Source: Vibrio crassostreae
GTDB taxonomy: Bacteria; Pseudomonadota; Gammaproteobacteria; Enterobacterales; Vibrionaceae
Assembly: GCF_024347415.1 (NCBI RefSeq)
Contig: NZ_AP025477.1
Span: forward strand, 372,001 to 436,000
DNA: 64,000 nt
Direction of reading: 5' to 3'
This document shows positions 35,004 to 43,416 of the stretch, piece after piece. How positions within the stretch are numbered: position 1 is the first letter of the stretch; each line of letters opens with the position of its first letter. The notes below the pieces were generated by a model. The model saw nothing but the letters and a program-made list of their open reading frames with translations. It ran no database searches and was not told the DNA's origin. The translations under genes and the position numbers were made by a program.

Positions 35004-35130
35004 GTTATAACAAAGCATTTAAGAGTGATTCCCAACGCTTGGCATTTTCAGTTCAAGGTTGGGTTTCGTGTTTACGGTGTAAAGGTTTAGGTTAGGTGGC
35101 AGTGTTGCTCACACCTTAATGCGGCGTTAT
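35004..35130 (+). repeat. attC site 1 (VCR-like)
   Basis: About 127 bases from GTTATAACAAAGCATTTAAG to GCGGCGTTAT. The ends are complementary (AACAAAGCATTAAG-type / CTTAATGCGGCGTT) and the inner CCAACGCTTGG box is present, the usual bottom-strand fold of Vibrio attC. Confidence 0.92.
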
Positions 35131-35148
35131 GTGCTACGAGGGTTAGTT

Positions 35149-35445
35149 ATGATAAGCAGTGAATATGTAGTGAAGAAATCGAATGATGAAGTATTACATT
35201 TGATTATTGAATTAGGTTTGCCTGAGCCAGATCCAACTATGGAAGCGGGTGATTATCGTTGTAAATTTAGTGTACTGGCATTGGGCATTGATGAGTATAT
35301 TTATGGGGTAGATGCAATGCAGTCATATTGTATGGCTCTAAAGCGCTTTAATTTTTTCGTAAATGATCTTATCTCGGAAGGGTATAATTTTTACTATCCG
35401 GGTTTTCTCGATATGGAAGTGGACATTCTGTCAACGTACTTTTAG
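35149..35445 (+). CDS. Cassette 2: small acidic cytoplasmic protein of unknown function
   Basis: 98 residues from the ATG at 35149, with GAGG nine bases upstream; a longer frame would begin inside attC 1. The sequence (LGLPEPDPTMEAGDYRCKFSVLALG) has the general look of the small DUF6968-type proteins often carried in cassettes, but I cannot confirm this. No membrane segment or signal peptide. It ends eight bases before attC 2. Confidence 0.65.
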   Translation: MISSEYVVKKSNDEVLHLIIELGLPEPDPTMEAGDYRCKFSVLALGIDEYIYGVDAMQSYCMALKRFNFFVNDLISEGYNFYYPGFLDMEVDILSTYF

Positions 35446-35452
35446 GTACGCA

Positions 35453-35575
35453 CATAACAAACTGTTCAAGAGGGATTCGCAACGCGTGGCATTTTCACTA
35501 TGCGTTGGTTTCAGTGTTTAAGGCGGTATGCGGCGACTTCGGTATTGCGTTGCTCACCCCTTAACAGGGCGTTAT
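35453..35575 (+). repeat. attC site 2 (VCR-like)
   Basis: About 123 bases from ATAACAAACTGTTCAAGAGG to TTAACAGGGCGTTAT, with central CAACGCGTGGC / GTTGCTCACC boxes. Confidence 0.92.
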
Positions 35576-35589
35576 AGCGCAGGAGAAAA

Positions 35590-36219
35590 ATTATCAATTC
35601 ACGAGTACTCTTCCATTATGTTACATGGTTTTTTCTGTCTGCCTTTGCGTTGATGGGAATTATTGTTCTGGCGTCGATTTATGTCACTGATAGACAGTCA
35701 TTTGATTCGCTTTTAGCAAACCTTGGCGATTTTGGTGGTTTTCTTGGTGGTGTTGGTACCATTATCGCGGCAGCGGCGGCTGCGGTTGGTGTTGATAGTT
35801 GGCTTAAACAGCTTCGAGTTGGTAAGTCATTAGTAGTGATTTGGGATGTTCAAGTCGCCTTACGAAAAATTCACGCCGCAGAAATTTCATGGTATGTACA
35901 CGCCTATCAGCGTTCGGAAGACTTTAATGTCGAAGAATTAGAAGAAGACGTAATAAAGGCTTTCGAGGTGCTCGATAATTGTGCTCATGAGCTGGACGCA
36001 ATTGTCGTAAAAAATCAGTTTGAATGGTTAAATAAAGTTATGGATATTCGGCTAGCTTGGAGTGCAATAAAATCCTACTTAGAAACACATCCACGACCAG
36101 ACAGTGTCGCTGACGTTTTAGTCGAAAATGAATTATTGGTTCCTAAAAATAGTCACTTTTCTGCAGTGTACAAAGAGTACTTGGAGCAATTAGAGAAGTT
36201 AGAGCAAACTCTGAAGTAG
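35590..36219 (+). CDS. Cassette 3: membrane-anchored protein of unknown function, probable ATT/ATC start
   Basis: About 209 residues if translation starts at ATT 35590 or ATC 35593. AGGAG at 35581-35585 is the only good ribosome site, and the reading frame is open and protein-like from there (NSRVLFHYVTWFFLSAFALM), giving a complete first membrane helix. The first standard codons (TTG/ATG 35650) would cut that helix. A second hydrophobic segment is GDFGGFLGGVGTIIAAAAAAVGV, then a soluble acidic helical domain. The layout (two helices, GG-rich second helix, soluble tail) resembles the abortive-infection-like protein two cassettes on, but no family is recognised. Confidence 0.65.
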   Translation: MINSRVLFHYVTWFFLSAFALMGIIVLASIYVTDRQSFDSLLANLGDFGGFLGGVGTIIAAAAAAVGVDSWLKQLRVGKSLVVIWDVQVALRKIHAAEISWYVHAYQRSEDFNVEELEEDVIKAFEVLDNCAHELDAIVVKNQFEWLNKVMDIRLAWSAIKSYLETHPRPDSVADVLVENELLVPKNSHFSAVYKEYLEQLEKLEQTLK

Positions 36220-36220
36220 C

Positions 36221-36231
36221 GCTATAACAAA
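36221..36231 (+). repeat. attC site 3, left fragment (interrupted by IS110 element)
   Basis: GCTATAACAAA is the first core box of an attC. Joining it to the sequence from 37417 rebuilds GCTATAACAAAGCGTTTAAG, the standard beginning of these sites. Confidence 0.85.
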
Positions 36232-36240
36232 CGACTATGG

Positions 36241-36246
36241 CGTCAA
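36241..36246 (-). promoter_or_regulatory. -35 half of a promoter formed when the IS110 ends join
   Basis: TTGACG on the minus strand in the right end. In a circle closed across TTTGT (minus-strand sense of ACAAA) it lies exactly 17 bases from GATAAT at 37403-37408 (minus strand) in the left end, giving a sigma-70-like promoter reading into the bridge RNA and transposase. In the integrated form the halves are separated by the whole element. Confidence 0.7.
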
Positions 36247-36249
36247 TGA

Positions 36250-37206
36250 TTAACTTTTGGCTGTGTTTTCATCCCACATGGCGCCATCTCTTAGCATAGA
36301 GTTAAGGGTCACAACCATCTTTCGAACACATGCGATTATTGCGACTTTCTTAGGCTTTCCAGCATCTAAAAGTCGAGCATAAGTCGCTTTGAATATGGGG
36401 TTACATTGCATGGCTGACATCATCGCCATGTATAAAACGGTTTGTACTTGCGCTCGACCGCCTTGGATCACGCGCTTACCTTTGTAGCGTCCACTTTCGC
36501 GTGTGATTGGAGCGACGCCAATCAGTGATGCTGCTTGTTTGTTGGTGATGTAGCCAAGCTCAGGTACGTTGCTAATAATTGATGCAGCGGCAATGTTTCC
36601 TATTCCTGGGACGCTCTGCAATATTGTGTTTTTAGTCTGGTATTCAGGGCTATCTTCAATGAGCTTAACGAGCTTTTCTTCTAACTTGGTGATTTGATTT
36701 TTTATCGTGGTTAGCATTGGTTTGATAGTCGCATGAAGCGAAGCTGGAAGTATTTGGATTCGGTTCTTTTCCATGGTTTGCATGGATAACAACTGGTTTC
36801 GACGAATAACTAAGTCGCTCATTAAACGTATGTTTTTAGGTTTGATGATAGTAAGAACAGGTTTGATTGCTTCTCCGTAATGAGCGATCAACTCTGCATC
36901 TAAACGATCATTTTTGGCTCTGCGGCCAATAGCACCAGCGAATCGTTTTATGTGGACAGGGTTTGCTCTAACAATAGGTAATTGAGCTTCTGCACATGCT
37001 AGAACAAAAGGCATTTCTAATCGGCCTGTTGCTTCAATAACTATACGTTCAGGATTATGATTTTTAATCGTTTTGAGTGCTTTCTTGATGCCTTTATCAT
37101 TGTTCTCTACTGAGAAAAATAGGTCTAGTGGCCTGATGTGGATGTCTAATTGTGTTTTGCCGGTATCAACTCCAACGTTGATGCTTTGATTGATTTTGGT
37201 ATTCAT
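36250..37206 (-). CDS. IS110-family transposase (DEDD recombinase)
   Basis: 318 residues. The N-terminal RuvC-like domain carries D14 (VGVDTGK), E58 (VIEATG), D100 and D103 (KNDRLDAE), the DEDD set of IS110. The C-terminal Tnp_20 domain starts near 195 with LQSVPGIGNIAAASI and has the nucleophile candidate Ser238 in ITRESGRYKGKR followed by GGRAQVQTVLYMAMM. The family makes a circular intermediate and inserts without conventional target duplication, guided by a bridge RNA. The frame is intact, so the element may be active. Confidence 0.95.
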   Translation of the reverse strand: MNTKINQSINVGVDTGKTQLDIHIRPLDLFFSVENNDKGIKKALKTIKNHNPERIVIEATGRLEMPFVLACAEAQLPIVRANPVHIKRFAGAIGRRAKNDRLDAELIAHYGEAIKPVLTIIKPKNIRLMSDLVIRRNQLLSMQTMEKNRIQILPASLHATIKPMLTTIKNQITKLEEKLVKLIEDSPEYQTKNTILQSVPGIGNIAAASIISNVPELGYITNKQAASLIGVAPITRESGRYKGKRVIQGGRAQVQTVLYMAMMSAMQCNPIFKATYARLLDAGKPKKVAIIACVRKMVVTLNSMLRDGAMWDENTAKS

Positions 37207-37375
37207 AATAAGCTAACTCATGCTTGCGTAATGCGGGTTCGAAACCCAGTCGACTATTCGAGGTTTATGCTTGAAGTCCTATGTAGCGTTCATGTTTGTT
37301 ATCGGTCTCTCGATAGAGGAGCCAGCGTTTAAACGAACTGCTACATAGAAAGCTTTAGTTGCAGCTAAAGCCTGG
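37205..37375 (-). ncRNA. Predicted IS110 bridge RNA
   Basis: Read on the minus strand: a hairpin GCTTTAG/CTAAAGC (37352-37371), then a 9-bp stem CTATGTAGC/GCTACATAG (37340-37348 with 37279-37287) enclosing a target loop. In that loop, TTAAACGCT (37324-37332) equals the target half at 37416-37424 and ATAACAAA complement (37295-37302) matches the half at 36224-36231. Next comes a donor loop: ATAGTCG (37251-37257) equals the right-end tip (36232-36238), a hairpin GGGTT-TCG-AACCC (37235-37247), and GCTTATTAT (37205-37213) complementary in sense to the left-end tip (37399-37407). The order is the one known for IS110 bridge RNAs. Ends of the transcript are estimates. Confidence 0.78.
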
Positions 37376-37402
37376 GTCTCACATTACCCGATTGGAGTGC
37401 TT

Positions 37403-37408
37403 ATTATC
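37403..37408 (-). promoter_or_regulatory. -10 half of the IS110 junction promoter
   Basis: GATAAT on the minus strand, three bases inside the left end. See the -35 half at 36241-36246; the 17-base spacer exists only in the circular form. Confidence 0.7.
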
Positions 37409-37411
37409 CAT

Positions 37412-37533
37412 ACAAAGCGTTTAAGAGGGATTCTCAACGCTTGGCATTTTCAGTTTGATTCAGCTTTAGTGTTTACGGCACAATTGTTTATAGGCTAAGT
37501 GGTGGCGTTGTTCACCCCTTAACGCGGCGTTAT
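37412..37533 (+). repeat. attC site 3, right part (interrupted by IS110 element)
   Basis: ACAAAGCGTTTAAGAGGGATT through CCTTAACGCGGCGTTAT, the remainder of the attC that follows cassette 3. The 3' crossover core GTTAT is intact. Confidence 0.88.
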
Positions 37534-37549
37534 GTTTATCGAGGAAAGT

Positions 37550-38167
37550 ATGGAATTAAACATGGAAATCAAAGATTGGATTACAATTGGAGCGGTAATT
37601 ATCGGTCCAATATTGGCTGTCCAAGCTCAGAAAATAATAGAAAATATAACGGAACGAAAAAGAAGAAAACTTCAATTGTTTCACACTCTGATGGAAACGC
37701 GTGCAACGAGATTATCGGGAGCTCATGTTTCTGCTCTAAATATGATAGATCTTGATTTCTACGGGAAATCTGTCTTTGGGAAACGTTGGCAGTCCGAAGC
37801 TGATAAAAAAGTTACGAATGCTTGGAAAATATATAACGATCATTTAAATAATAGCGTTCCTGATGAAAGACTCGATGCGTGGATTGAACGGAGTAATGAT
37901 TTATTTACAAGCCTTCTTTACGCTATGGCTCAATCATTAGGTTATGACTTCGATGAAGTCCAGCTTAAAAGAGATTGCTATAGTCCTATTGCGCATGGGC
38001 GCGTCGAAAATGAACAGACCAAAGTCCGTGAAGGCGTGTTAGCTATTTTAGAAGGCAAGCGTTCGTTACCAATGCACATAACCTATTTACCTCCATACCA
38101 TCCAATAGACCCCGTTGTTCAACCTGAAGTAACAGGTAACGAAAAGGTAGAACCGGTGGCAAAATAA
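37550..38167 (+). CDS. Cassette 4: DUF6680-like membrane-anchored protein
   Basis: 205 residues from ATG 37550, preceded by GAGGAAAG. The N-terminus (EIKDWITIGAVIIGPILAVQAQKIIE) is one membrane helix, followed by a basic stretch ERKRRK and a soluble domain containing LFHTLMETRATRLSGAHVSALNMIDLDF. This arrangement matches what I know as DUF6680, a family common in integron cassettes and of unknown function. Ends just before attC 4. Confidence 0.75.
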   Translation: MELNMEIKDWITIGAVIIGPILAVQAQKIIENITERKRRKLQLFHTLMETRATRLSGAHVSALNMIDLDFYGKSVFGKRWQSEADKKVTNAWKIYNDHLNNSVPDERLDAWIERSNDLFTSLLYAMAQSLGYDFDEVQLKRDCYSPIAHGRVENEQTKVREGVLAILEGKRSLPMHITYLPPYHPIDPVVQPEVTGNEKVEPVAK

Positions 38168-38287
38168 ACATAACAAGCGCTTCAAGCTGATTCGCAACGC
38201 GTACCATTTTTAGTTCAAATTGGTTTGGTGTTTACGGTGCAATGCAGACAGCTCGTCTTCGTTGCTCACAGCTTAAGCGAGCGTTAT
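38168..38287 (+). repeat. attC site 4 (VCR-like)
   Basis: About 120 bases from ACATAACAAGCGCTTCAAGC to GCTTAAGCGAGCGTTAT; the outer arms AAGCGCTT.AAGC / GCTTAAGCG.GCGTT are complementary. Confidence 0.9.
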
Positions 38288-38317
38288 ACCTTTATTTCAA
38301 ACTAGTGAGTTTCATGA

Positions 38318-39241
38318 ATGTTTAAAAAATTGGTTCCATATATATTTTTATTAACTGCGCTTTTTGTTGTAGCAGTACCAAGTGTCTATTTTATAAGCTT
38401 TCCTGGCGGCTTCAGCGAAAATCAAACTGATTGGGCTAGCTTTGGTTCTTATGTCGGAGGGACTGTCGGGGCTGTTTTTGCTTCACTATCATTTTTGGCT
38501 CTTCTTTACACGGTTTATCTTCAAAGAGCGGAGCTTAGTACAGCTGTTACTGCTTTGAATAAAAGTGCTGAAGCACAGGTTGAGCAAGCAAAAACTTATG
38601 AAATTCAAAAGTTTGAAACAACTTTTTATTCGCTACTTGAGCTACATAACCAAGCACTACAAAAACTAGATACCTCTACGACTGTATTGAGTTATCTGTC
38701 TAACTTAGAAACGCAAGATAAAGAGATATCTGAATATCTGGATGAACGACAAGATCACATCTTGAAAAATACTGAATTATCTCAGTATTTTCGTATTTTA
38801 TATCAACTTCTTAAGTTCATAGCTAAAAGCAATGTTATGAATAGAAACAAAGTTTTTAATGCGTCATATCTTGCTGATAGAAATAATATTACGGCAAACG
38901 AAGAATTTGAAAAAATGTATGCAAGCTTTGTTCGTAGCTTTGTACCAGTAAATATTCTACCTGTCTTGGCTCTAAACTGCATTCCAAGCCCTACATGCAT
39001 CAAAAACCTAGACTCCTACTGGCACTTACTAGAACGCTATGAATTCCTTGAACACTTGAAGATTGACCAACTTCCTTTAAATCTATCTTCGTTATTGATT
39101 CTTGATCGATACTCTTATGCTTTAGGTGATCTTGAAAGGTTTAAGAAAAAACAATTAGCTCTCAAGAATGAGTATCCAGAGTACTTTGACGATAAATTGA
39201 TGGAGGGGGGAATTCTACACACCCTCCAAATGAATACGTAA
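38318..39241 (+). CDS. Cassette 5: putative phage abortive-infection protein (AbiC-like)
   Basis: 307 residues. Two N-terminal membrane helices (about 5-28 and 44-68, the second in WASFGSYVGGTVGAVFASLSFLALL), then a coiled segment and the motif QKFETTFYSLLELHNQ around 105-120, followed by helical sequence with FRILYQLLKFI. This is the layout of proteins annotated as putative phage abortive infection proteins (putAbiC). A role in phage defence is inferred from that resemblance. Carried as a cassette with attC 5 directly after the stop. Confidence 0.72.
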   Translation: MFKKLVPYIFLLTALFVVAVPSVYFISFPGGFSENQTDWASFGSYVGGTVGAVFASLSFLALLYTVYLQRAELSTAVTALNKSAEAQVEQAKTYEIQKFETTFYSLLELHNQALQKLDTSTTVLSYLSNLETQDKEISEYLDERQDHILKNTELSQYFRILYQLLKFIAKSNVMNRNKVFNASYLADRNNITANEEFEKMYASFVRSFVPVNILPVLALNCIPSPTCIKNLDSYWHLLERYEFLEHLKIDQLPLNLSSLLILDRYSYALGDLERFKKKQLALKNEYPEYFDDKLMEGGILHTLQMNT

Positions 39242-39246
39242 ACAAG

Positions 39247-39370
39247 GTATAACAAACTGTTTAAGAGTGATTCGCAACGCGTGGCATTTATACTATGCGT
39301 TGCGTTTAGTGTTTAAGGTGGCATGCGGTAGCTTCGGTATTGCGTTGCTCACACTTTAACAGGGCGTTAT
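39247..39370 (+). repeat. attC site 5 (VCR-like)
   Basis: About 124 bases from GTATAACAAACTGTTTAAGA to CTTTAACAGGGCGTTAT. The middle is nearly identical to attC 2 (ACTATGCGTTG ... GGCATGCGG.AGCTTCGGTATTGCGTTG), so the two share recent ancestry. Confidence 0.92.
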
Positions 39371-39387
39371 AAGTCAAGGAGAAGATT

Positions 39388-39891
39388 TTGGATTCTGGTA
39401 TTACTTCAGGATTGATTGGTGGTCTAGTCGCCGTAATCATAGGCACAATAATCACCAAATCAACTAAGAAAAAAGTAACTAATGGTGAACTTAAGCATGG
39501 TGTTTTTCTTTTAGTGTTAGCTATTGCTTGCCTTACGCTTTCTCTTCTTGCTGCGTGGGTGGGGCTCTACGATAACGATGTACAACCAAAAACTGGCGAT
39601 CTTGTTGCTGTTTTAGGTTTGTTTTCTGGCTTTGGCATCGCTGCATTGGCATGTTTTGCTGAATACTTTAAAGTCAAAGGCAGATTTAATGATAGCAGCA
39701 TCGAATTTCATACTCCTTGGACGGGGGCAAAAAAAGAGCATTGGGATGACCTAATTTCTGCAAAGTTTAACACGTCAATGTACTGGTACACTCTCCATTT
39801 TAAATCTGGCAATAAAGTTCGCTTATCTTCTTACTTACTAGGGCATGGAGAGGTTTTAGAGCTACTCAAATCCAGAGGGTTTGACTTATAA
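39388..39891 (+). CDS. Cassette 6: membrane protein of unknown function
   Basis: 167 residues from TTG 39388, chosen because AAGGAG lies five bases upstream. Three hydrophobic segments (LIGGLVAVIIGTIIT, FLLVLAIACLTLSLLAAWVGL, LVAVLGLFSGFGIAALACFA) are followed by a ~60-residue soluble C-terminal domain with beta-like pattern (WYTLHFKSGNKVRLSSYLLG), reminiscent of PH-like tails. No family assigned. AttC 6 overlaps the stop. Confidence 0.65.
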   Translation: MDSGITSGLIGGLVAVIIGTIITKSTKKKVTNGELKHGVFLLVLAIACLTLSLLAAWVGLYDNDVQPKTGDLVAVLGLFSGFGIAALACFAEYFKVKGRFNDSSIEFHTPWTGAKKEHWDDLISAKFNTSMYWYTLHFKSGNKVRLSSYLLGHGEVLELLKSRGFDL

Positions 39892-40012
39892 CAAGCAATT
39901 GAAGATGGATTCACAACGCTTGGCACTTTTGCTTCTACTTCAAATTTAGTGTTTACGGCACGATGCTTTAGGTTTGGGTGGAGGCGTTGTTCACCCCTTA
40001 ATTGGGCGTTAT
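39886..40012 (+). repeat. attC site 6 (VCR-like)
   Basis: About 127 bases from TTATAACAAGCAATTGAAGA to CCTTAATTGGGCGTTAT; outer arms complementary. Confidence 0.9.
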
Positions 40013-40050
40013 AGTTTTCGGCGGCTTAGTCATAAACCGCCATTCTCAGC

Positions 40051-40359
40051 CTATTTCGTGATAGTTAGTGATTTGGGGCTGACAAGACTAGGTGCGGTCT
40101 TGGGCATTGTGCAACTAACTCGCAACTTATACCCTTTGTTGAGATATTGCTCAATTTCCTCATAAGATTCCACGTATAAGTAGTCTTTCTCAAACTTTGT
40201 TTTACTCACAACATACTTTCCGTTTTCATGTTTGTGAGGTTTTTGGATTGCATCTGCATTCTTGCCACTTTTGGTCACGTAACTGATATCCAAATTTTTT
40301 TCCTTATTTCGAGTGAAAAATATATATAGCCGTTTAATTAGTTCTGTTAATTTACTCAT
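40051..40359 (-). CDS. Cassette 7b: small basic protein partner of the CsrA-like protein
   Basis: 102 residues, Lys-rich (about one in six), with no membrane segment and no recognised family. The ATG (40357-40359) overlaps the stop of the CsrA-like gene by eight bases (ATGAGTAA), indicating translational coupling. It runs against the usual cassette direction, toward the preceding attC. Function unknown; its constant link to a CsrA-like gene would suggest a partner or regulator, which is inference. Confidence 0.6.
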   Translation of the reverse strand: MSKLTELIKRLYIFFTRNKEKNLDISYVTKSGKNADAIQKPHKHENGKYVVSKTKFEKDYLYVESYEEIEQYLNKGYKLRVSCTMPKTAPSLVSPKSLTITK

Positions 40360-40546
40360 ATAAGCTGCTCTCTAGCATTTCTGCTAGCTTTTCATCTCTA
40401 ACAACTTTGAAGTCTGTAGAAAAGTTTATCCCAAGACTTGTTTGGTTATGCCTACGCTGTGGTTGAATTTTTATTGTTGCAATTACCTCGTTATTTTTAT
40501 TAATGAGGTGAAGTGATTGCCCTTCTTTGCGAGAGATTGATAGCAT
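40352..40546 (-). CDS. Cassette 7a: CsrA/RsmA-like RNA-binding protein
   Basis: 64 residues, the size of CsrA. MLSISRKEGQSLHL aligns with the CsrA start (Leu2, Arg6, Gly9), the middle IATIKIQ with strand 2-3, LGINFSTDFKVVRDEKL with the GI.AP..V.VHR.EI region; Arg6 and Arg50 correspond to the RNA-contacting Arg6 and Arg44 of CsrA. It departs from housekeeping CsrA through a longer loop RRHNQTS, so it is a diverged paralogue. It lies in reverse orientation in its cassette, with its own promoter presumably in the AT-rich 40547-40673. Confidence 0.78.
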   Translation of the reverse strand: MLSISRKEGQSLHLINKNNEVIATIKIQPQRRHNQTSLGINFSTDFKVVRDEKLAEMLESSLYE

Positions 40547-40673
40547 ATAAGTTTCACTAGGTTTGTTTCAAAGAGTGTATATGGTAATAGTCGATTCGAG
40601 GTGTTTCAATAATAATATAAGCATTGAAAATCAATGATTTATATCAAAATACATTATTGGCAGACAAAATAAA

Positions 40674-40800
40674 CTATAACAAAGCGTTTAAGAGGGATTC
40701 CCAACGCTTGGCATTTTCGGCTTTCATCAATTTAAGTGATTATGTCACAATGGTTTAGGTAGGGTGGTTTGCGTTGCTCACCCCTTAACGCGGCGTTATA
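40674..40800 (+). repeat. attC site 7 (VCR-like)
   Basis: About 127 bases from CTATAACAAAGCGTTTAAGA to CCTTAACGCGGCGTTATA. Confidence 0.92.
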
Positions 40801-40817
40801 ACTATAGCGAGAGTTCA

Positions 40818-41453
40818 ATGGATCAATTCTTACAAGCAAAAGTACTTAAAGCAGATCTAGTGTCTATCGATAGTCAATTTACAGAAAATGGCATAGGTGA
40901 TATGCCAAGTATGGTGCTTCTGAAACAAGGGCTGATATCTGTTGCGAATCTTTTTGATTTCGAAGTCACAATTAGGCGAATGTATCAGCATCATCCAGAG
41001 TTAAACGAATTTTATAGAACATTTTTAAAAGAGTGTGAATTTGCAAAATATCTGCGTAATAAATTTGTAGGGCATTTGAAACAAGAATTGGTCAATAAAG
41101 CCCTAGAATGGAATCCTGAAATAAGGATGTTTTTGGATAAAATGGATGAGCCAACAGTTGCTTATCATGTTAATCAACTGATTTTAGAAACAGCTATCAA
41201 CACTTATGTTGATGGCGAGCAAAAGCATAAGTTATTTGATTCTGAAACAGATCTCAATTATCCGCCTGACAGTACAAGGTTTTTAAAATACCTTACCTTA
41301 GTTATCCGTTCATCTGCAGAATTCTTGAAACAGTATATAGAAATTAGACAAGCAGAAGTTCAAGGTGAGATTGAAGAGGCTAGTGGATTAGAGGGCATGT
41401 TGAAATTAGCTGGTGAGGCAGGGAAAACCGATTTTAACTTCATCAGAAAATAG
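40818..41453 (+). CDS. Cassette 8: helical protein with possible HEPN motif
   Basis: 211 residues from ATG 40818 (GCGAGAG upstream); the longer frame would start in attC 7. Predicted all-helical and soluble. Around residue 79 the segment YLRNKFVGHL contains R-N-x4-H, which fits the Rx4-6H motif of HEPN ribonuclease domains, where a polar residue follows the Arg. This is a motif-level resemblance only. HEPN proteins are frequent in phage defence and toxin systems. No other family recognised. Confidence 0.55.
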   Translation: MDQFLQAKVLKADLVSIDSQFTENGIGDMPSMVLLKQGLISVANLFDFEVTIRRMYQHHPELNEFYRTFLKECEFAKYLRNKFVGHLKQELVNKALEWNPEIRMFLDKMDEPTVAYHVNQLILETAINTYVDGEQKHKLFDSETDLNYPPDSTRFLKYLTLVIRSSAEFLKQYIEIRQAEVQGEIEEASGLEGMLKLAGEAGKTDFNFIRK

Positions 41454-41550
41454 TTATAACAAGGCGTTTAAACGGAACTAAAACAGTGGGTTACGTTTCG
41501 CTTCGCTACACATTTTAACCCACAATTTTAGTCCGCTTAACGCGGCGTTA
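41453..41550 (+). repeat. attC site 8, short non-VCR type
   Basis: About 98 bases from GTTATAACAAGGCGTTTAAA to GCTTAACGCGGCGTTA. The interior is a long palindrome: GGAACTAAAACAGTGGGTTA pairs with TAACCCACAATTTTAGTCC. This differs from the VCR-like sites. Confidence 0.9.
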
Positions 41551-41573
41551 ACTGGCAAAAGGAGTATTGAACA

Positions 41574-42371
41574 TTGGAAGAACTGATAGCCCAATATACG
41601 GGTGCTAATGAAGATCAAAGACTGACAAGACAGTATATTGCTCAGTTAGAGTTTGACACCACAATGCACAAACTCGAACCTTATTTGTCAAAAGGCAAAT
41701 CGGTATGTGAGCTGGGAGCAGCTACGGGGCGTTACTCTTTAAGTTTTGCAAAGATGGGTTGTGATGTAACAGCTGTAGAGCTTGTGCCTGATCAAGTCGA
41801 TATTCTAAATACCAAAGCTAAATCCGAGGGTATCGAGTTAAGAGTGTTTGAGGGAAATGCGTGTGACGTTTCATTTATTGAGAGTAGTTCTCAAGATGTT
41901 TGTGTGATCCTAGGGCCTTTATATCACTTGAAAACTCTGCACGAAAGAGAGCTGGCGATAAAAGAAGCTTTGCGTATTCTGAAGCCAAATGGGGTGTTAG
42001 CTGTTGCCTATATCTCACGCTTTTTTGTCGCGGGCATGTTCGCTCAACAATTTCCGGAATTGATTACCCCCGAAGTGCTTATCGAATTAAATAAGTACGG
42101 CACAGTTTCAAATTCAAAAGCAGATAGTTTCTTTAATGTAGGGTACTTCGCCACACCGGCTGAAATTGAATGTTTGGTTCAAGACAATGGTTTTGGTGTT
42201 ATTGGTCACTCCGCAACAGATGGCTTTGGACGTTATATTTCTAATGGTGTTAATGGCTTTACACGATCTCAATATCAAACTTGGTTAGATTATCACTTAA
42301 TAAATTGTGATGAACCTAGTTTATTAGGTTCAAGTAATCATGGTTTAGTGATCGCTAGAAAAGCCAGTTAA
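41574..42371 (+). CDS. Cassette 9: class I SAM-dependent methyltransferase
   Basis: 265 residues from TTG 41574 with GGAG nine bases upstream. Motif I is SVCELGAATGRYSLSFA (residues 43-59), followed by an acidic strand end VTAVELVPDQV, then DVCVILGPLYHL and ALRILKPNGVLAVAY, the Rossmann methyltransferase order. The small-molecule or RNA substrate cannot be told. Ends just before attC 9. Confidence 0.85.
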   Translation: MEELIAQYTGANEDQRLTRQYIAQLEFDTTMHKLEPYLSKGKSVCELGAATGRYSLSFAKMGCDVTAVELVPDQVDILNTKAKSEGIELRVFEGNACDVSFIESSSQDVCVILGPLYHLKTLHERELAIKEALRILKPNGVLAVAYISRFFVAGMFAQQFPELITPEVLIELNKYGTVSNSKADSFFNVGYFATPAEIECLVQDNGFGVIGHSATDGFGRYISNGVNGFTRSQYQTWLDYHLINCDEPSLLGSSNHGLVIARKAS

Positions 42372-42460
42372 CAAAGCATTTAAGAGTGATTCGCAACGCT
42401 TGGCGTTTTCGCTTCGCTCAAGTATAGCCAAGCGCAGCTCACACCTTAATGCGGCGTTAT
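42367..42460 (+). repeat. attC site 9, short VCR-related
   Basis: About 94 bases from GTTAACAAAGCATTTAAGAG to CACCTTAATGCGGCGTTAT with a reduced centre (TTCGCTTCGCTCAAG). The outer boxes match attC 1. Confidence 0.9.
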
Positions 42461-42492
42461 AACGCTATTTCAATTTATCGAAAGGGGAAAAT

Positions 42493-43281
42493 ATGAAGCA
42501 GTTGTTTTTATCTCACATACATGAAGAAAAAGAGTTAGCATTACTTATTAAGCAAGCAATCGAAGATGAATTTTCAGGTTTCGTTGATGTATTTGTTTCG
42601 TCTGATGGTATAAGTATTCCAGCAGGAGCTAACTTTTTAAAGCGTATTGAAGATGGGCTTGTTGAATCTATTGGTGCAATGTACCTTATTAGCCCCAAGT
42701 CAGTTAATCGTAACTGGATTAATTTTGAATTAGGTGCTATGTGGATTCGTAATGCAATTAGCATCCGAAGTGAAGAAAATGAAATTCCAACGTTACCGTT
42801 GTGCCACTCGGGAATGGATCTTCAACAATTACCTAAGCCGATTGATAATTTAAATGCAATTATAGCGAACCAAGCTTCTCAGCTTGAATTTGCTTTTAGG
42901 TCAATACAAAACGCTGTTGGAGGTAAAGGTTCATTAAGAACTAATTTTGATGAATTAGCTGGAAATATTGCGAAATTCGAACGTCAATACACACTAATAT
43001 CAAATGTAAACTTGGCATTAAAGTTGGTTAACTTAGATAATAGCCAATTTAAGGAGTACTGTTTAGCTCAACGCCCAGGCGAACTTATTTCTTTAGAGCT
43101 AGGGTGTATACCGAGTGATATTCTTAAAAAAGTTAAAGCTCTAGAAGCTGAATTGATAGGGCATGTATCGCTACAGATTGATACAGTTAGAGGCTTGGCG
43201 TATAACCATAAAACAGGTGAAACAGGTCAAAATGCCAGTATTACAGTGAATAGGGAGGTTGTTTTAGAAACGTTAGCCTAA
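42493..43281 (+). CDS. Cassette 10: TIR-domain protein
   Basis: 262 residues. The N-terminal ~130 residues are a TIR domain: KQLFLSHIHEEKELALLIK (strand A/helix A), VFVSSDGISIPAG (BB loop), YLISPKSVNRNWINFELGAMW with Glu79 as the likely catalytic NADase residue. The C-terminal ~130 residues are of unknown fold. Many bacterial TIR proteins deplete NAD during phage infection, so a defence role is a reasonable inference. ATG 42493 has GAAAGGGG upstream. Confidence 0.85.
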   Translation: MKQLFLSHIHEEKELALLIKQAIEDEFSGFVDVFVSSDGISIPAGANFLKRIEDGLVESIGAMYLISPKSVNRNWINFELGAMWIRNAISIRSEENEIPTLPLCHSGMDLQQLPKPIDNLNAIIANQASQLEFAFRSIQNAVGGKGSLRTNFDELAGNIAKFERQYTLISNVNLALKLVNLDNSQFKEYCLAQRPGELISLELGCIPSDILKKVKALEAELIGHVSLQIDTVRGLAYNHKTGETGQNASITVNREVVLETLA

Positions 43282-43292
43282 TGTGGTGAAGC

Positions 43293-43416
43293 GTTATAAC
43301 AAACTGTTCAAGAGGGATTCCCAACGCTCGGCATTTTCAATTTGGTCAGCTTTAGTGTTTAAGGTGGCAAGGTTTTAGGTTAGGTGGTAGCGTTGCTCAC
43401 TACTTAACGCGGCTAT
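43293..43416 (+). repeat. attC site 10 with altered 3' core
   Basis: About 124 bases from GTTATAACAAACTGTTCAAG to CTTAACGCGGCTATA. The expected GGCGTTAT end is replaced by GGCTATAT, so the crossover core has lost its GTT. Confidence 0.85.

Follow-up and report, generated by a model that had tools for sequence, protein, structure and literature searches.

An insertion sequence in the genome of Vibrio crassostreae sits within one attC site of an integron cassette array, which raises the question of how it came to occupy this particular spot. The window, i.e. the whole stretch of DNA analysed, comprises 64,000 nucleotides, and it contains seven further intact attC cores. We are highly confident that the insertion is an IS110-group element with a bridge RNA guiding its insertion into integron attC sites, and this reading of an earlier note on the same DNA, that of a bridge RNA aimed at the attC core, remains the best one since three of its guides covary with their partners. 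The element probably selects its landing spots by RNA. At the level of sequence, the comparisons below establish the element ends, the target, the agreement of three guides with their partners, and the fold of the 5' stem-loop and the target loop. The element, its target and the surrounding cores are located as follows:

36232..37414, minus strand: IS110-group element without its cores (1,183 bp; left end 37414, right end 36232), ends conserved among relatives
36250..37206, minus strand: DEDD transposase/recombinase of 318 aa (PF01548, PF02371, NF033542 with 200 bits)
36232..36238, minus strand: right-end tip ATAGTCG (left donor)
37415..37416, minus strand: core dinucleotide TT of the left junction, with the same TT at 36230-36231
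36230..36231, minus strand: core dinucleotide TT of the right junction, matching the TT of the left junction
37417..37425, minus strand: left target, L'' part of attC (CTTAAACGC)
36223..36231, plus strand: R'' end of the interrupted attC (TATAACAAA)
37518..37535, plus strand: L'-R' partner of the interrupted attC (CTTAACGC-GGC-GTTATGT), 0 of 200 shuffles scoring as high
35008..35023, minus strand: intact attC core
35455..35470, minus strand: intact attC core
38171..38186, minus strand: intact attC core
39250..39265, minus strand: intact attC core
40677..40692, minus strand: intact attC core, identical to the interrupted site
42369..42384, minus strand: intact attC core
43297..43312, minus strand: intact attC core

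Membership in the IS110 family is evident from the protein, which combines a DEDD (RuvC) domain and a Tnp domain with a conserved serine; PF01548, PF02371 and NF033542 all score above their cut-offs. In the alignment with IS621, residues D14, E58, D100, D103 and S238 fall on its catalytic D, E, D, D and S, and the only solved structures matched are those of IS621 and ISCro4 (97 bits each). Alignments of many relatives cover positions 1-1184 of the query element.

The natural target of the window element is CTTAAACGCTTTGTTAT. The earlier observation that further attC sites of the window share the core of the interrupted one is borne out by the seven intact cores of the form CTTRANNNNYTTGTTA (35008-43312, all on the minus strand), compared to 0.09 expected. 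The twin at 40677 is identical to the interrupted core and thus shows the appearance of the empty site. Genome-wide (5.8 Mb, 4 contigs), the core pattern has 20 matches including the seven of the window, and the backward-read control has 9. A search of the whole genome for an integron integrase gave none above the TIGR02249 family cut-off (best partial match 71 bits, cut-off 265; 14 control genomes also yielded matches below cut-off), so the array at 35008-43312 may be a cassette cluster without integrase. An empty site after the same cassette was not found among 227 genomes, the cassette being present in the source genome only (1/227). At window position 41457, TAACAAGGCGTTTAAACGG resembles another attC type, and the target of one relative (L050) is alike.

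The non-coding left end of the element harbours the predicted RNA, with these components in 5' to 3' order of the transcript:

37209..37388, minus strand: bridge (seeker) RNA region, model R1, supported by fold z and covariation
37352..37371, minus strand: 5' stem-loop, 7 pairs, 4 of them changed on both sides
37335..37347, minus strand: 5' arm of the target-loop stem with one bulged A, 12 pairs, 6 changed on both sides
37324..37333, minus strand: left target guide (LTG) TTTAAACGCT, following the left flank
37304..37323, minus strand: stem-loop between LTG and RTG, nearly invariant, drawn rather than proven
37295..37302, minus strand: right target guide (RTG) ATAACAAA, following the right flank
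37280..37291, minus strand: 3' arm of the target-loop stem
37269..37272, minus strand: 5' arm of the donor-loop stem (AAGC), 4 pairs with 37210-37213, scarcely varying
37251..37257, minus strand: left donor guide (LDG) ATAGTCG, equal to the right-end tip
37235..37247, minus strand: stem-loop between the donor guides, nearly invariant
37223..37232, minus strand: probable right donor guide (RDG) ATTACGCAAG, gapped pairing to CTTGTAT of the left-end tip
37210..37213, minus strand: 3' arm of the donor-loop stem (GCTT), within the right donor guide of the earlier note

Region 37209-37388 folds at -57.9 kcal/mol (z = -5.02). Comparison of the fold with relatives, which the earlier note had called for, supports it: in 24 sequences, 10 of 36 pairs are altered on both sides versus 5.0 upon shuffling (0/500), and pairing is kept in 97.9% of cells, the tested structure being based on the first sequence together with the consensus fold. 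Six of the ten doubly changed pairs belong to the target-loop stem and four to the 5' stem-loop; the other four helices are drawn and not proven, as they scarcely vary. Of the five fold measures, the one for further pair types remained within the shuffles (58/500). The stem proposed earlier to enclose the target loop is real, and its length has to be corrected from 9 bp to 12 pairs with one bulged A (8+4). At E 1e-5, model R1 matches 37 of 394 genomes of the order, in 11 of 114 genera; neither Rfam at gathering scores nor ARAGORN gave a match in this DNA. The RNA would be expressed from the left end.

IS1111 elements reportedly insert into attC, as Tetu and Holmes (in 2008) and Post and Hall (in 2009) are said to have described. 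An RNA-guided element aimed at attC as such is already known: guide RNAs directed to one attC end were shown for ISKpn4 and ISPst6 and predicted for ISPa25 (PMC11187229; articles cited by PMC number were available in part, and statements taken from them refer to those parts). This raises the question if the window element is simply a member of that IS1111-attC group. It shares the kind of target, one end of attC, and the window copy indeed lies in an attC with a partner arm and an intact twin; moreover, a few IS1111-type elements have an upstream RNA region (PMC11187229). Still, we regard such a membership as very unlikely. The non-coding DNA lies upstream of the transposase gene (208 nt, compared with 18 nt at the opposite end), the bottom-strand match (LTG) is located 5' of the top-strand match (RTG) in the RNA, and the subterminal repeat is short (~5 bp, CCATA/TATGG, by eye), in agreement with the absence of long repeats in the IS110 group, the reverse being the IS1111 rule (PMC11208160, PMC11187229). 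As judged from their descriptions, the IS1111-attC elements have the RNA downstream of the transposase gene, a reversed guide order and longer subterminal repeats, none of which is seen here, and the matches to solved structures are confined to IS621 and ISCro4.

For the IS110-group element we propose the following mechanism. A bridge RNA consisting of a target loop and a donor loop would be encoded between the left end and the DEDD recombinase gene. Its target loop would pair with both attC strands at the R''/L'' border (CTTAAACGC-TT-TGTTAT), and its donor loop with the joined element ends, the pairing within the complex and the right donor guide being putative parts of this scheme. By exchanging strands at the NT core, the recombinase would let the element enter attC in one orientation. 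Insertion separates R'' from L'' and should thereby disable that attC, and the disabling of single attC sites could fix the cassette order. We also envisage a circular intermediate whose junction would create a promoter: joining right end, core and left end of the window element generates TTGACG, 17 nt and GATAAT, and a like arrangement appears at the joined ends of 84 of 88 insertions, with accepted -35/-10 variants taken from our own list. For ISEc11 and the IS110-type ISEc21, a promoter arising from the joined ends has been reported as well (PMC11187229).

If the RNA is programmed in this way, guides and flanks should change together. Relatives were taken from the best 80 of 142 contig loci and from 61 of 227 genus genomes at E 1e-60 (own genome included); close ones occur in Vibrio, Photobacterium, Shewanella, Alteromonas, Pseudoalteromonas and others, and the named records most similar in the transposase are from Vibrio. 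The large set retained 131 regex matches, corresponding to 108 unique insertions, after dropping 35 (23 without LTG/RTG, 6 without left end and 6 with too short a left flank); 107 insertions were usable for the LTG (one masked), 88 for the LDG and 87 for the RTG, the rest being without right end or masked. A smaller set comprised 76 of 77 NCRs (L037 dropped), 75 of them used for the LTG.

Among 48 unique LTGs, 6.00 of 9 positions match the left flank versus 4.40 after permutation (0/20,000), a test that leaves shared descent in place and scores, for data and controls, whichever of two registers fits better. All 107 usable rows gave 6.11 versus 4.79 (0/5,000), and three draws from the smaller set, with one row for each of its 34 unique LTGs, gave 6.2 to 6.4 of 9 versus 4.6 to 4.7 (0/20,000 each). 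The match persists within right-flank classes (TTTGTTA, n=11, 6/20,000; CTTGTTA, n=20, 0/20,000). The RTG equals the right flank over 7 nt in 81 of 87 insertions, with agreement of the core base in 86 of 87; rare variants changed along with the flank (L034, TTCGTTA; L048, CTTATTA), and in L048 both guides changed together with both flanks. As expected for a bridge RNA, the target loop hence matches both target strands. In the donor loop, the LDG equals the right-end tip in 83 of 88 insertions, over five haplotypes. The four matches quoted in the earlier note all exist in the window (37324-37332 identical to 37416-37424; 37295-37302 the reverse complement of 36224-36231; 37251-37257 equal to 36232-36238; 37205-37213 the reverse complement of 37399-37407), and three of its guides, LTG, RTG and LDG, follow left flank, right flank and right-end tip above chance across relatives. 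Sites sharing nothing with the loops, which it had named as evidence against its proposal, are not what the relatives present; their flanks do match the loops.

Exceptions for the RTG are L038, L050, L051, L116, L141 and L149 (6/87), and for the LDG L031, L075, L116, L142 and L149 (5/88). L116 combines second-lineage guides with a first-lineage right end and flank, as if it were a hybrid. It is the sole core-base exception and has a discordant right-end tip, so that its right end may have come from another element.

The fourth guide calls for revision. The earlier note had placed the right donor guide at 37205-37213, where GCTTATTAT stands by the start codon in 96 of 108 insertions; the left-end tip, its supposed partner, varies. 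This segment is fully complementary to the tip in 23 of 108 insertions and to at least 7 of 9 positions in 85 of 108. The latter count stems from the ATAAT stretch of the tip, which most insertions share; when the tip changes, the motif does not change with it. The motif is not a guide; it is the nearly constant 3' arm of the donor-loop stem plus the start codon. The probable RDG at 37223-37232 and the left-end tip both vary too little for a covariation test. In a second lineage, many members carry ATTTGCAAG at this position, the same sequence that the pairings in PMC11208158 imply for the RDG of IS621.

The pieces at the left end do spell attC halves, and one might take them for remnants of a captured attC, or the whole element for a cassette acted on by an integron integrase. 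We consider this extremely improbable, as these pieces occupy the guide positions of a conserved fold and follow the flanks one by one, in a genome without an integron integrase above the family cut-off.

A further explanation is that recognition of attC by the recombinase depends on the folded hairpin or on protein contacts, with the guide matches being by-products of residence in attC. It would account for YTTGTTA right flanks in 80 of 87 insertions whatever the LTG, and for the imperfect LTG matching (commonest value 6/9; 4 or less in 12 of 107). The strongest control in this respect is the comparison within loci, for which 43 rows held a neighbouring core, neighbours being limited to the pattern YTTRANNNNYTTGTTA (L046 and, with a mis-anchored left end, L034 and L081 were excluded). 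LTGs fit the occupied attC in 6.53 of 9 positions versus 5.11 of 9 in intact neighbours; the occupied site was better in 33 loci, equal in 6 and worse in 4 (Wilcoxon p 2e-7). Counted per unique LTG, 21 of 25 were better and 1 worse. Agreement at the core base was seen in 37 of 38 occupied versus 53 of 83 neighbouring sites. The occupied site thus surpasses its neighbours in the same locus, so the guide match is to the site used. Since this applies to L box and core base, and since guide changes accompany flank changes in L034, L038, L048, L141 and L148, recognition without RNA is, in our view, highly improbable. Tuning of LTGs to the general attC repertoire of their locus was considered and rejected (4.86 versus 4.82 permuted, 3636/10,000, one register); the core base is weakly tuned to its own locus (0.64 versus 0.51 permuted, 152/10,000).

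In favour of guidance by RNA, some relatives appear retargeted. L034 and L038 (both Shewanella), L141 and L148 carry LTGs of the ATATCCTTA type, at or near CTATCCTTA. L148 is from a genome of the window's genus, and L141 shares genus group g7 with the genome of L143, whose element and site are those of L038. When the flanks of L038, L141 and L148 are rejoined, each pair gives a short palindromic site whose far end reads GTTGAAC, in keeping with the attC consensus; those of L034 contain no GTTGAAC-type arm. The partner-arm test, built for the longer Vibrio attC, gave p 0.375 for L038 and 0.845 for L034, its set excluding L141 and L148.

According to the earlier note, the insertion flanks of close relatives should all be attC R'' boxes, and this holds in part. 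A partner arm (L'-spacer-GTTA-like) was supported at p 0.05 in 42 of 75 insertions, the window copy included, and without support at this level in 33 of 75, L034, L062 and L085 among them; an earlier version of the test was near noise (11/69 at 0.05), the replacement pattern was shaped after the first result, and 75 of 76 insertions were taken (L046 skipped, masked). Insertions without partner arm may lie in half sites, in long or otherwise different attC sites, or in sequences of another kind.

The left junctions of the 108 insertions also show some irregularity. Relative to a YTTRA anchor, 55 have the expected length, 22 are one base shorter and 2 one longer, and 29 are without anchor. The short junctions occur mostly at sites ending in GC or GT (17/22). 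Intact sites have a spacing of 4 in 82 of 93 pattern matches and of 3 in 5. In the short-junction insertions the LTG would set the core one base to the left of the RTG's position, and our guess is a slipped exchange.

IS621 is among the closest known systems. It targets REP sequences, whereas the window element targets attC; furthermore, the RTG of the latter pairs over ~8 nt, its core is TT, and its protein is only 97 bits from IS621. According to the available parts of the IS621 literature, of which PMC11208160 covers the bridge RNA and the different RNA location in IS110 and IS1111, the two have in common an RNA encoded in the left end, the order LTG, RTG, LDG, RDG, two loops with stem-loops between guides, a DEDD-S recombinase, the left-end TGTAT, an NT core and, as far as the probable RDG of the window element is concerned, pairing of the RDG with gaps. 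ISEc21, of the IS110 type, has an upstream seekRNA with the bottom-strand match first and a junction promoter, as proposed for the window element; its target differs, being located in the transposase genes of particular IS3-family members (PMC11187229).

What is new here is an IS110-type clade, with RNA upstream of the transposase gene and a guide order opposite to that of the IS1111 elements, at attC, with natural guide variants per attC type. We recognised no IS110-type element with upstream RNA aimed at attC in the literature searched, most subscription journals and bioRxiv lying outside it. IS110 elements were reported in Shewanella integrons, none interrupting attC in the part of PMC9229058 available; IS110 elements in Shewanella are mentioned, not in attC, in the accessible part of PMC10011109; and ISPa21 of the IS1111 group lies in integron cassettes and might disrupt attC (PMC11616780). 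This suggests that integron arrays, by which bacteria capture accessory genes, are targeted by guide RNAs of the IS110 half of the IS110/IS1111 superfamily as well as of its IS1111 half. We think it likely that the elements constitute a separate, second RNA-guided lineage specialised on integron attC across many Gammaproteobacteria genera, whose guides were repeatedly rewritten, in the L box, in the core base and even towards another attC type, a short one, as in Shewanella and in one genome of the genus Vibrio, and whose RNA decides which attC subtype within an array is occupied, hence which cassette is frozen in place. About a hundred insertions at slightly differing sites, with guides differing alongside and unoccupied neighbours as controls, amount to a natural experiment on bridge RNA programming.

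The V. crassostreae genome contains a second copy (L002/L003; L002 1292-2473) with a broken transposase frame. Its site, GTTTAAATTGAT/TTTGTTAAGG, resembles an attC, with no clear partner arm (p 0.19). In the Vibrio halioticoli plasmid AP024877.1, six places are similar to the transposase, the best being 96.5% identical. A second partial left end is found near the locus end in L024 (5133-5253) and L068 (5074-5188), perhaps from a neighbouring insertion.
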